A DNA stretch of 36,116 nt from Microbacteriaceae bacterium. GTDB taxonomy: Bacteria; Actinomycetota; Actinomycetes; Actinomycetales; Microbacteriaceae. The notes below the pieces were generated by a model, which saw only the letters and a list, made by a program, of their open reading frames with translations, was not told the DNA's origin and searched no databases. The stretch lies in assembly GCA_947453465.1 (NCBI GenBank), contig CANGGL010000014.1, positions 1-36,116 on the forward strand, read 5' to 3'. The translations under genes and the position numbers were made by a program. Below, piece after piece: positions 30,873 through 34,558 of the stretch. Position 1 is the stretch's first letter, and each line of letters begins with the position of its first letter.

Positions 30873-31220
30873 GTGACTGATGTATTAGCCTCCGTGGCAT
30901 CCTGGATTACCGTTCCCGACGCAGCCGAACTTATGGGCATCCCGCTAGGGCGTGTTCGTCGATTGATCGAGGAACATCAGCTCGTCGCGGTCAAGCGCGA
31001 TGGTGTGGTGAGCATTCCAGCCGAGACCATCGTCGATGGCGAACCGTTGGTTAGCCTGCACGGCACGATAATCGTGCTGCTGGATTCGGGTTATTCACTT
31101 GATGCGGCCATCGAGTGGCTTTACACATTCGATGACCAACTCCCAGGAACCCCTATGGAGTTTCTGTTGAAGGGGCACAAATCTGCCGTTCGCCGTTTGG
31201 CAATGGTTCAGGCGCTCTAA
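30873..31220 (+). CDS. helix-turn-helix DNA-binding protein, Rv2175c-like
   Basis: 115 aa from a GTG at 30873, divergent from the kinase gene with an 84-bp gap. Residues ~10-55 form an excisionase/MerR-like winged helix (WITVPDAAELMGIPLGRVRRLIEE, then LVAVKRDGVVSIPAE). The remainder is a small helical C-terminal domain (FLLKGHKSAVRRLAMVQAL). The mycobacterial homologue binds DNA and is phosphorylated by PknL at an N-terminal Thr; here the N-terminal tail is very short, with Thr2 and Thr13 only. CAATCT lies 6 nt before the GTG and may be a -10 element. Targets are unknown. Confidence 0.85.
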   Translation: MTDVLASVASWITVPDAAELMGIPLGRVRRLIEEHQLVAVKRDGVVSIPAETIVDGEPLVSLHGTIIVLLDSGYSLDAAIEWLYTFDDQLPGTPMEFLLKGHKSAVRRLAMVQAL

Positions 31221-31250: not shown

Positions 31251-32350
31251 ATTACCTTCAGCGCCAAGCCGCGAAGCTGCTCTTTGGCAGTCGGTTCTAG
31301 GTCTAGCGATTCAAGCGCATTCAGGCTCTCATCGGCAAGTTCTTCCATCATGCGCTCGGTCTTGGCTAATGCGCCCGATTCCTTGATGGTCTGCTGCAAG
31401 AATCCAATTTGCTCTGGCTCAAGTTCTCTGCTGCTCAGCAACTCATCGAAGATACGTCCGATTGAGGGACTGAGCGCCTCGCGAGTGAGCGCAACCAGCA
31501 CGGTGCGCTTACCTTCGCGCAGGTCATCGCCGGCAGGTTTTCCGGTGACTGCCGGGTCGCCAAAAACACCAAGGATGTCGTCGCGCAGCTGAAAGGCCAT
31601 GCCCAGTGGAATGCCGAAAGCTGAAAGTCCGTGGAGCAAGCCAGCCTCGGCGCCGGCAAAAGCTGCACCGATCAAAAGTGGCGCCTCGATGCTGTACTTC
31701 GCGGTCTTGTAAAGCATGACTCGGTTTGCTCGACCGAAGGCCTCTTCGGCTGGGCGAGTGGTTGCGGAGTTCTCCTCGAGGACGTCAAGGTACTGACCCG
31801 CCATAACCTCTACTCGCATCTTGCTGAACTCGGTTCGGCAAGCGGACTCAATCGAAGTATTTGGTGCAGCCAACAAGGCATTTCCGAAGATTTCGCTGCT
31901 CCAGCCAAGCATTAGGTCTCCCACGAGCACCGATCCGGCGACGCCGAAGCGCTCAGGGCTTCCCGCCCAGCCGGATGCGCTGTGCAAAGCCTCGAAGCGC
32001 TTGTGAACTGCAGGAGCACCGCGTCTGGTGTCTGATTGGTCGAGAAGGTCGTCGTGGACCAAAGCCGCTGCGTGGAACATCTCGAGAGCCGCCGTGATTC
32101 CGACGATTGCGGCAGCGGAGTTTTGGCGCTGAGCTTCGGTTTGCTGGAGATCGGCAGTGCCCATGGCGCCCACCCAGGACCAGTAGCAAAACAGAGCACG
32201 GAATCGCTTGCCGCCGGCAAGGAGGCTCTGGGTGTAGTCAACAACTGGGACCAAATCGGGAGAAATCGCGTTGAAATCATCACGCCGCGAGACGCAAAAT
32301 TCATCGAGATTTGCTTGGATCAGTTCAAGTAGGACTTCGGATTCACTCAC
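31235..32350 (-). CDS. idsA: polyprenyl diphosphate synthase (geranylgeranyl-PP synthase type)
   Basis: 371 aa on the minus strand from a GTG at 32350. The first aspartate-rich motif is HDDLLDQSDTRRG; the second is LRDDILGVFGD, as in actinobacterial IdsA enzymes. GGKRFRALFCYW is the conserved IPP-binding region. It builds C15-C20 allylic diphosphates from IPP for quinone, carotenoid or lipid-carrier synthesis; chain length cannot be read with certainty. The neighbours match mycobacterial Rv2173 (idsA2). TAGGCT lies 6 nt before the GTG on this strand. Confidence 0.93.
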   Translation of the reverse strand: MSESEVLLELIQANLDEFCVSRRDDFNAISPDLVPVVDYTQSLLAGGKRFRALFCYWSWVGAMGTADLQQTEAQRQNSAAAIVGITAALEMFHAAALVHDDLLDQSDTRRGAPAVHKRFEALHSASGWAGSPERFGVAGSVLVGDLMLGWSSEIFGNALLAAPNTSIESACRTEFSKMRVEVMAGQYLDVLEENSATTRPAEEAFGRANRVMLYKTAKYSIEAPLLIGAAFAGAEAGLLHGLSAFGIPLGMAFQLRDDILGVFGDPAVTGKPAGDDLREGKRTVLVALTREALSPSIGRIFDELLSSRELEPEQIGFLQQTIKESGALAKTERMMEELADESLNALESLDLEPTAKEQLRGLALKVINRQA

Positions 32351-32362
32351 AGGAATAGCCTA
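32351..32362 (-). promoter_or_regulatory. TAGGCT -10-like element, leaderless start of idsA
   Basis: On the minus strand TAGGCT (32362-32357) is exactly 6 nt before the GTG of idsA at 32350. No ribosome binding site is seen. It faces a second TAGGCT promoter for the divergent DUF3040 gene about 37 bp away. Confidence 0.5.
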
Positions 32363-32375
32363 ACAATCTGGAACG

Positions 32376-32404
32376 TTTACATAAGTAGAACGGAGCCGTA
32401 GGCT
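32376..32404 (+). promoter_or_regulatory. promoter of the DUF3040 gene
   Basis: TTTACA (32376-32381), a 17-bp spacer and TAGGCT (32399-32404) form the best-spaced -35/-10 pair in the window. Transcription would start near 32411, leaving a ~17-nt leader with the GCGGAGG ribosome binding site. Confidence 0.7.
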
Positions 32405-32427
32405 TAAGGCAATAGCGGAGGATTCAA

Positions 32428-32790
32428 ATGGCACTTTCGGATCGAGAGCAAAGATTACTTGATGAGCTCGAGCGCGGACTTTACGAGACCGATGCGAACT
32501 TCGCCAACAAGCTAGGCAACCCTTCCGCCAAGACTCCGGCGAGGCTTATCGCCGGTCTGGCCATTGGTCTGATTGGTGTCTCGCTTATCGTTTTTGCGGT
32601 GATGATTCGTGTCGCCTTCTTTGGCGTCTTTGCGTTTTTAGTGATGCTGGCTGGATTGATCGTAGCCAGTTCAAACCTCGCGCCACAGGCAGGTTCCTCG
32701 CAGAATCAGCCAGGCCAGCGAAAGTCATCAGGTGGTAGTCCGCGCAGAAACTACTTTGAAGAACGCTGGGAGAAGCGTCAGCGTGAATAG
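32428..32790 (+). CDS. DUF3040 family small membrane protein
   Basis: 120 aa, ATG at 32428 with a GCGGAGG site. The N-terminus MALSDREQRLLDELERGLYETD is the DUF3040 hallmark, followed by two adjacent membrane helices (~36-80) and a polar Gln/Ser/Arg-rich C-terminal tail. Such genes lie just upstream of mraZ in many actinobacteria (Rv2169c position). Function is unknown; location hints at the cell envelope or division. Confidence 0.9.
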   Translation: MALSDREQRLLDELERGLYETDANFANKLGNPSAKTPARLIAGLAIGLIGVSLIVFAVMIRVAFFGVFAFLVMLAGLIVASSNLAPQAGSSQNQPGQRKSSGGSPRRNYFEERWEKRQRE

Positions 32791-32855
32791 TTCACCGGTC
32801 TAACACCCGCAAAGGCGTGGCCGTAGGTCGGTCAATCAGCAAAGAGTCCTGACAA

Positions 32856-32879
32856 CCCCCGAAAGGGGGGTATTTTTTT
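32856..32879 (+). terminator. Rho-independent terminator after the DUF3040 gene
   Basis: CCCCC, a GAAA tetraloop and GGGGG(G) are followed by TATTTTTTT. This is a strong intrinsic terminator on the plus strand. It insulates the dcw cluster from upstream transcription. Confidence 0.93.
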
Positions 32880-32891
32880 GCCCTTTTTGAC

Positions 32892-32936
32892 CTGCATTTG
32901 GACCGCATTTAACCCATTTGCCTCCATTTGCCTCCA
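32892..32936 (-). promoter_or_regulatory. distal, inverted array of five MraZ-like boxes
   Basis: Five pentamers begin at 32892, 32902, 32912, 32922 and 32932, an exact 10-bp period. Read on the minus strand from right to left they are TGGAG, TGGAG, TGGGT, GCGGT and TGCAG, separated by A-rich pentamers (GCAAA, GCAAA, TAAAT, CCAAA). They match the TGGAG boxes before mraZ but point the other way. The two rightmost copies are best conserved. Confidence 0.55.
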
Positions 32937-33010
32937 CTCGTTACATCCCTGTTATTTATTGGTAATTACGACACGCCGAGGTGAAAATATTCCCCAAAAT
33001 ATTGAATATG

Positions 33011-33045
33011 TGGAAGGAAATGGAGTAAAGTGGAGTAAAGCGGAA
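33011..33045 (+). promoter_or_regulatory. proximal MraZ operator: four direct boxes upstream of mraZ
   Basis: TGGAA, TGGAG, TGGAG and CGGAA start at 33011, 33021, 33031 and 33041, with spacers GGAAA, TAAAG and TAAAG. MraZ proteins bind TGGGN-like boxes repeated every 10 bp in their own promoter (AAAGTGG-type boxes). The array ends 25 nt before the mraZ ATG, as expected for autoregulation of the dcw operon. Confidence 0.85.
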
Positions 33046-33070
33046 TTTCAAAGGATGAAAGGGGGAACCG

Positions 33071-33502
33071 ATGCTTCTAGGTCAGCACTCACCAAAGCTT
33101 GACGACAAGGGTCGAGTCATCCTCCCTGCCAAATTCCGCGAGGAGCTCCAGGGTGGTCTAGTAATCACCCGAGGCCAGGATCGTTGCCTTTTTGTTTTCA
33201 GTGCAGCAGAGTTTGCTTTGGTCAATGAAAAGATCCGTCAGGCGCCGGTTACCAATGCCGAGGCGCGCAACTACCTCCGCGTTTTTCTATCGGGTGCCTC
33301 GGATGAGCAGCCGGACAAGCAGGGTCGCGTAACTATTCCGGCCACACTGCGTCAGTACGCAGGCCTGGACAAAGACTTAGTCGTTATCGGTGTGGGAAAT
33401 CGCGCCGAAATCTGGGATGCCAAGGCGTGGACTGAATTCTTGGCCACACACGAAGCCTCCTTCTCTAATGTCTCGGAGGAGGTGGTTCCCGGACTCTTCT
33501 AG
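33071..33502 (+). CDS. mraZ: transcriptional regulator MraZ
   Basis: 143 aa, ATG at 33071 with an AAAGGGGG-like purine tract upstream. Two tandem SpoVT/AbrB-type half domains each carry the DxxGR motif: DDKGRVILP near the start and DKQGRVTIP about 75 residues later. MraZ forms ring oligomers that bind the repeated boxes before its own gene and control the dcw cluster. Located in standard order before rsmH. Confidence 0.96.
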
Positions 33503-33592
33503 CCTGCTGCTAGATCTCCACCCGTTCATAACTGCGATAAACCAAGCTCGCGGCGAATGGATGGGGTTCTAGTAACAGGAACTTCCGGATAA

Positions 33593-34558
33593 ATGATGTC
33601 AAAGAAGATTTCTGAACTACACGCTCCAGTGACTCTCGAGCGCACCATTGAACTCCTGGCTCCGGCTCTCGAAGCGGAAGGCGCCGTATTTGTCGACGGC
33701 ACTCTCGGCCTGGGTGGTCATAGCGAGGCTTTCCTCGAGCGTTTCCCCAAGCTAACGTTGGTTGGCATCGACCGAGACACCAACGCTTTGGTGCTCGCGG
33801 GGGAGAGACTAGCCAGATTTAAAGACCGAATCCACTTGGTGCACGCCGTCTACGAAGAAATCGAAGACGTGCTGGACGAGCTAGACATTAAGTCGGCGCA
33901 GGGCATTTTGCTTGACCTCGGAGTCTCGTCTATGCAGCTCGATGAGGCCGACCGCGGATTCGCTTATTCCTACGAAGCCCCGTTGGACATGCGCATGGAT
34001 GCTTCTACCGGGCAAACTGCGGCGGACGTCGTGAACACATACTCTGAGCAGGATCTGGCCCGAATCTTCAAAGAATTCGGTGAAGAACGCTATGCCAAGG
34101 GAGTTGCCAGGGCTATCGTCGAGGCTCGCAAGACCACTCCGTTCACCACTAGCACCCAGCTAGCCGGTTTGATCGCCAAGGTCATCCCATTCATCCCTGG
34201 CAAGAGCAGCGGCCACCCAGCCAAGCGCGTTTTCCAGGCACTAAGAATCGAAGTCAACGGTGAGCTAGAGGTGCTAGAGCGCACTATGCCAGCTTCCATT
34301 CGCTCACTTTCGGTAGGTGGCCGAATCGTGGTCTTGTCTTATCACTCGCTAGAGGACCGAATCGTGAAGCAGGCCTTGGTTGCTGCGGCCAACTCTTCAG
34401 CGCCACTCGAGCTTCCATTTGAACTTCCAGAGCACGCCCCAGTCCTTCGCCTTCTGGTGAAGGGTGCTGAGCCGGCCACTGCCGAAGAAATTGCAATCAA
34501 CCCACGAGCCGCATCTGTGCGTCTCCGTGCGGCAGAAAAGATCCGGAGTCAAGCATGA
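33593..34558 (+). CDS. rsmH: 16S rRNA (cytosine1402-N4)-methyltransferase RsmH
   Basis: 321 aa, ATG at 33593 (a second ATG follows directly). The SAM-binding motif is [14 protein letters not shown]. The family blocks [37 protein letters not shown] and [12 protein letters not shown] are all present. It methylates C1402 of 16S rRNA in the decoding centre. The stop overlaps the next gene as ATGA. Confidence 0.96.

Follow-up and report, generated by a model that had tools for sequence, protein, structure and literature searches.

The mraZ Locus and Its Promoter Region

In many bacteria, MraZ heads the division operon. The stretch of DNA analysed here (“the window”; 36,116 bp) lies on contig C14 of a genome of 1.43 Mb (85% complete), in which a single mraZ was found and whose nearest named relatives are Microbacteriaceae, Micrococcales and Rhodoluna MAGs. 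According to Pfam matches and the list of open reading frames (ORFs), a DUF3040 gene on the plus strand (PF11239; 32428..32790) is the co-directional upstream neighbour of mraZ (PF02381; 33071..33502, plus strand), which is followed by rsmH, or mraW (PF01795; 33593..34558, plus strand), an ORF with no Pfam match and the beginning of a gene encoding a penicillin-binding-protein dimerisation domain. A terminator-like hairpin with a T-run (32855..32879, plus strand) is located 3' of the DUF3040 gene and 5' of the conserved boxes of the distal array described below. Elsewhere in the window, an Rv2175c-like winged-helix DNA-binding protein (30873-31220; PF21531, PF18367) is encoded between a 657-aa minus-strand ORF and a polyprenyl synthetase gene.

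Immediately 5' of mraZ, inspection of the letters and a search for TGGAG-N5-TGGAG reveal a direct array of MraZ boxes with a 10-bp period on the plus strand (the proximal array; 33011..33045), composed of TGGAA at 33011, TGGAG at 33021, TGGAG at 33031 and CGGAA at 33041. The same arrangement recurs 5' of mraZ in relatives, among the matches listed. By sequence reading, a likely promoter on the plus strand (33002..33031) combines a -35 element, TTGAAT (33002-33007), an 18-bp spacer and a -10 element, TAAAGT (33026-33031), although this proposed mraZ promoter was not called by a consensus scan. The predicted -10 element sits in the spacer separating proximal boxes 2 and 3, transcription would start near 33038 and, judged by sequence, the proximal array overlaps the predicted promoter or start. 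Spacer 2 of the proximal array reads TANNG in 71 of 71 loci, a uniformity that is partly by construction, since the anchor used for alignment was weighted towards TA.

An Inverted Distal Array Upstream of the Likely Promoter

A second set of boxes in 10-bp register is found further upstream on the minus strand: TGGAG (32932-32936), TGGAG (32922-32926), TGGGT (32912-32916), GCGGT (32902-32906) and TGCAG (32892-32896). The original prediction had given the coordinates and letters of both arrays, as well as their edge-to-edge distance of 74 bp (32937..33010), correctly. Both arrays consist of tandem TGG[AG]N boxes at 10-bp spacing 5' of mraZ, and in all 36,116 bp just two perfect TGGAG-N5-TGGAG pairs occur on either strand, one in each array. 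Scored over five boxes, the distal array reaches 18/25 and is tied with the proximal array as best; the best place elsewhere in the window comes as near as 17 because distal boxes 4 and 5 are weak.

This weakness extends to relatives, and the claim of five distal boxes has to be reduced accordingly. In the four closest species among the 13 loci shown (L003, L004, L005 and L011; MraZ 94-98% identical), TGG is retained in distal boxes 1-3, box 4 has degenerated (ATGGG, CGGGG, TTGGC and CAGGG, respectively), and the position of box 5 is occupied by the T-run of the DUF3040 terminator, so that this box is lost. We would therefore call the distal array one of three boxes (conserved core; 32912..32936, minus strand), leaving the two outer weak boxes (GCGGT and TGCAG; 32892..32911, minus strand) as elements that are not kept.

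At positions that played no part in the selection of sites, the base preceding the distal box is a G and the spacer tends to the [GC]GAA[AG] type, resembling proximal spacer 1. None of 71 distal spacers begins with TA, the sign of a -10 element, and a single one contains TA. Sequence features of this kind make the distal array look like an MraZ site without a promoter; showing no sign of overlap with a promoter, it would therefore be an auxiliary rather than a primary operator. The ORF list holds no leftward ORF of at least 90 aa running from the distal array within the DUF3040 region, where the upstream gene is co-directional, and the absence of a leftward gene, already stated in the original prediction, fits this list. 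With no leftward gene and no TA-start spacer (0/71), a divergent promoter at the distal array is rejected.

Conservation of the Distal Array

The mraZ-upstream stretches were collected from 213 loci (one dropped; 205 unique). Excluded from the counts were L035 (a partial gene), duplicate upstream sequences and the named loci L012-L034, L036 and L037, which form an uneven sample. Altogether, 78 genera matched, and the 40 genera of the family are those among the matches listed. In the first set of counts, the 160 bp preceding the proximal array were searched for CTCCA-N5-CTCCA with at most one mismatch.

The minus-strand pair is present in 30 of the 40 Microbacteriaceae genera, exactly so in 24, as compared to a shuffle mean of 0.34 and one genus with a plus-strand pair. 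Corresponding values are 9/22 loci for the genus of the window (shuffle mean 0.08; no plus-strand pair), 14/33 for other families of the order (0.24; one), 3/27 for other orders of the class (0.15; one) and 1/15 for named distant relatives (0.07; none). Six permuted words yielded 0-2 matches in the same upstream regions. With more loci and slightly different limits, the pair was counted in 29/40 (family), 8/22 (genus), 25/53 (order) and 9/47 (class); outside the order its rate is thus low in both counts (3/27 or 9/47). A chance origin of the distal array is disfavoured by the shuffles and the permuted words, as well as by the reversed-pattern control of the genome scans described below, which gave 0.

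In the window's genus the full pair is rarer than in the genera of the family, and the remaining loci shown mostly retain one box. Among pair-less loci of family and genus taken together, a CTCCA remains between -101 and -84 in 18/25, compared with 63/677 background stretches. No CTCCA between -150 and -20 is found in 5/11 pair-less family genera and in L061 and L062 of the genus. The distal periodicity, whose conservation in relatives the original prediction had proposed as a check, survives in the family (30/40 genera) and in other families of the class; judged from these upstream sequences, the distal array is not a local feature but one which many actinobacteria keep.

Helical Phasing of the Two Arrays

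The distance between the arrays was determined in whole genomes with a pattern consisting of the exact distal pair, a gap and TGGRGTANNGTGG. Within the order, gaps of 58-88 bp were found in 63/297 genomes (the genome of the window included), representing 34/93 genera, and gaps of 89-119 bp in 10/297; gaps of 27-57 bp were found in 0/297. The latter two ranges were scanned across the order alone. A sample of the class gave 23/295 genomes with gaps of 58-88 bp; 12 of these, from three further families, were new, whereas the other 11 had been included in the sample of the order. The reversed pattern was matched 0 times in every gap scan. The two-array pattern is a strict one, and 224/297 genomes of the order do not contain it.

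The resulting 85 gaps are confined to four classes—70-75 bp (61), 81-85 bp (14), 93-97 bp (7) and 105-106 bp (3)—with none between. In the window, 84 bp separate the distal pair from the anchor box at 33021, a distance in the 81-85 class; the motif of the proximal array recurs at this gap in the window and at 70-106 bp across genomes. The best-fitting period is 11.05 bp, with a bootstrap range of 10.7-11.6. At the genus-by-class level (n = 51), R is 0.83 at 11.05 bp vs. 0.72 at 10.0 bp, a fit that 0/2000 uniform nulls equalled; the means behind this estimate were formed per genus and class after grouping in steps of 11.1 bp, a procedure that narrows each class, but the raw histogram of the 85 gaps has identical empty intervals without that grouping. 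Likewise, in six families possessing more than one spacing class, eight steps, which are differences of class means entered by hand, average 11.01 bp per turn, and 0/5000 random sets fit equally well. By both the overall period (11.05 bp) and the family steps (11.01 bp per turn), the distance is restricted to one helical phase. An artefact of box register, i.e., an array shifted by one box, predicts a period of 10.0 bp and is rejected by the observed 11.05 bp, with 0/1000 bootstraps at or below 10.2.

Further Elements Upstream of mraZ

The interval between the arrays contains additional conserved sequence. The element ACACGCCG (32971..32978, plus strand) is found at -50/-49 from the anchor in 12/22 loci of the genus and in 4/40 of the family; four other words gave 0/22. 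This suggests another regulator site inside the interval. The block CTCCACTCGTTAYATCCCTGTTA...CGACACGCCG (window 32932-32980) is nearly invariant in L001, L003, L004, L005 and L011, among the matches listed.

A different word, TGACCTGC, is found no more than 150 bp from the proximal anchor in 22/54 loci of the order, 9/47 of the class and 0/40 of the family, with five permuted words giving 0; the loci of other families belong to the sets L064-L082 and L125-L213. Its usual position is either -65 to -68 or roughly -77; measured from where the distal pair begins, it lies at 21-22 bp in 11/14 cases. Among the loci of the genus, the window alone (1/22) has TGACCTGC, at 32888-32895 and, hence, 5' of the conserved distal boxes.

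At least one further minus-oriented pair is present 140-330 bp before the anchor in 19/40 family genera, 26/54 loci of other families of the order, 8/47 of the class and 4/22 of the genus, while plus-oriented pairs in the same range number 0, 1, 0 and 0, respectively. Third minus-oriented MraZ-like arrays are seen in L085, L095, L109, L115, L117, L121, L122 and others, and L113 has several, arranged in a roughly 24-bp repeat. Among the 57 loci with further arrays, 23 have a frame of at least 70 codons ending at most 40 nt before the array, and 17 of these 23 frames are DUF3040-like.

As to a wider MraZ regulon, the genome contains TGGR-N6-TGGR at 107 places, compared with 160 for the reversed control, and no other target is evident from this search. 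Among the matches listed of these 107, three-box runs in register are confined to the two mraZ arrays.

Proposed Function and Alternative Explanations

Our preferred reading, to which we assign a probability of roughly 60%, is that 32912-32936 constitutes an auxiliary MraZ operator, inverted with respect to 33011-33045, and that a loop bridged by MraZ tightens autorepression. MraZ would act as a ring-shaped oligomer with many DNA-binding subunits that occupies the proximal array and covers the -35/-10 region. Contact with the distal array from the same side of the helix would close the DNA between them into a loop spanning about 7-10 turns, and the higher local occupancy of the repressor would result in tighter autorepression of mraZ and the division operon. 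Bridging or looping, as raised in the original prediction, gains support because the gap varies in steps of about 11 bp. The loop is probably short, MraZ-bridged and repressive, and the two operators would share one helical face. Observed directly are the array, its conservation and orientation bias, its resemblance to the proximal motif and spacer and the distance quantised at about 11 bp; that MraZ binds the distal site, that it bridges both arrays and that repression results is what we infer.

How a ring would span two inverted arrays deserves a comment. A cyclic ring combined with a U-turn of the DNA would favour direct arrays and, therefore, the inverted orientation would need flipping of the ring, ring–ring contact or another path. 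Either a pair of touching rings or one ring in flipped orientation may be at least as likely as a single bridging ring. MraZ has been named an octameric toroid (PMC7761207). MraZ entries 9qlr, 9qlg, 9r4j, 9sx6 and 9sz7 in the PDB (one with 36 chains), beside 1n0e-g, may show MraZ–DNA or multi-ring assemblies.

The main rival, unlikely in our estimate, assigns the distal array to activation: MraZ bound in a phase-constrained manner about 90-110 bp upstream would contact RNA polymerase (e.g., the alpha C-terminal domain) or a co-bound factor. A distal MraZ touching RNA polymerase predicts helical phase relative to the promoter equally well, given that the -10 element has a fixed place in the proximal array. 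The position of TGACCTGC in other families, mostly 21-22 bp beyond the point where the distal pair begins, would also suit an activator, possibly within a multi-factor complex. Furthermore, M. gallisepticum MraZ has reportedly been found to be an activator. However, distance changes of two to three whole turns (gaps 93-106) would be easier to reconcile with a flexible loop than with a polymerase contact of fixed geometry. Excerpts of PMC8475190 describe the MraZ proteins of E. coli and M. genitalium as repressors of the division operon, which speaks for the repressive loop.

Very improbably, the CTCCA repeats are a C-rich, G-poor site for Rho loading in the plus-strand transcript of the upstream gene, with their likeness to MraZ boxes a by-product. 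Such a site would accord with the further arrays 140-330 bp upstream, minus-oriented in 19/40 and plus-oriented in 0/40 of the family, and with the DUF3040-like frames ending at most 40 nt before such an array in 17/57 loci. The exact boxes, their exact 10-bp spacing, the proximal-like spacer and the promoter phasing of about 11 bp would, however, all be unexpected, and the conserved boxes of the window come after the terminator-like hairpin.

An RNA stem, in which a read-through transcript would pair CUCCA with UGGAG and attenuate or terminate transcription into mraZ, we hold to be highly improbable. The arrays are nearly reverse complements of each other and the upstream gene is co-directional, yet the excess of pairing within a locus is tiny (12.17 vs. 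12.05 of 15 for permuted partners), with 54/1000 permutations equally good over 71 loci. With the likely promoter located within the proximal array, the mraZ mRNA would not carry the distal array, and loop lengths quantised at about 11 bp are not needed for a stem. A known RNA element was not found either, as Rfam gave no match up to E = 1 for 32300-33700.

The least probable explanation, a neutral relic of an inverted operator duplication, draws on the degenerate outer boxes of the window and the single good box left in part of the genus, but the array is kept across families and orders at a fixed phase while the flanking columns carry little information, and the ancestral duplicate offered in the original prediction would, as a mere duplicate, leave this kept phase unexplained.

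Returning to the looped auxiliary operator, we see about an even chance that it extends beyond this locus, i.e., that the division operon of Actinomycetes carries a bipartite inverted MraZ operator with a loop of 7-10 turns held by MraZ rings, and that the further upstream arrays possibly belong to a higher-order MraZ–DNA assembly in many genera. A conserved, phase-locked and inverted second operator would give the MraZ ring a task, namely the bridging of two arrays, and would point to regulation across a large bacterial class that the single-array model of E. coli and Mollicutes would miss. If true, this would, to our knowledge, make MraZ the first regulator of the MraZ/AbrB kind with a looping switch.

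Comparison with Known Systems

The proximal array matches known operators in box and period. The MraZ operator of B. cenocepacia comprises four 7-nt repeats with 3-nt spacers, similar to the proximal array (PMC7761207), and MraZ sites in Mollicutes are direct AAAGTG[T/G] repeats (PMC8475190). E. coli MG1655 also possesses a plus-strand array, with pairs at -43 and -33; a minus-strand pair is absent from the 634 bp preceding mraZ. A difference concerns the promoter, as the sites of B. cenocepacia and E. coli are placed downstream of the -10 element (PMC7761207), whereas the proximal array described here seems to span -35 to -10.

At the mraZ promoter region of another actinobacterium, Dietzia, a different protein, the regulator MtrA, binds (PMC9602371), with no exact site named in the passages considered. 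Titles and abstract beginnings of open-licence articles in PMC contained no inverted or second MraZ array, which may still be described in work on MraZ of E. coli or C. glutamicum. The descriptions of E. coli, B. cenocepacia and Mollicutes cited above name one array; the present locus adds another, inverted and 74 bp further upstream.

A further likeness is to looping of the lac O1-O3 type, in which two operators are held by one oligomeric repressor—here, presumably the same protein at both arrays—and the distance follows the helical repeat in vivo. For LacI repression in living E. coli, three data sets with spacings of 58-156 bp give 11.60 and 11.08 bp per turn, and 10.95 without HU (PMC1762422); the 11.05 bp obtained for the mraZ arrays resembles these values and not the 10-bp period of the boxes. 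In contrast to the lac type, the operators of mraZ are direct-repeat arrays that would be read by a ring protein and that face each other in inverted orientation, and it is their evolution that points to looping.
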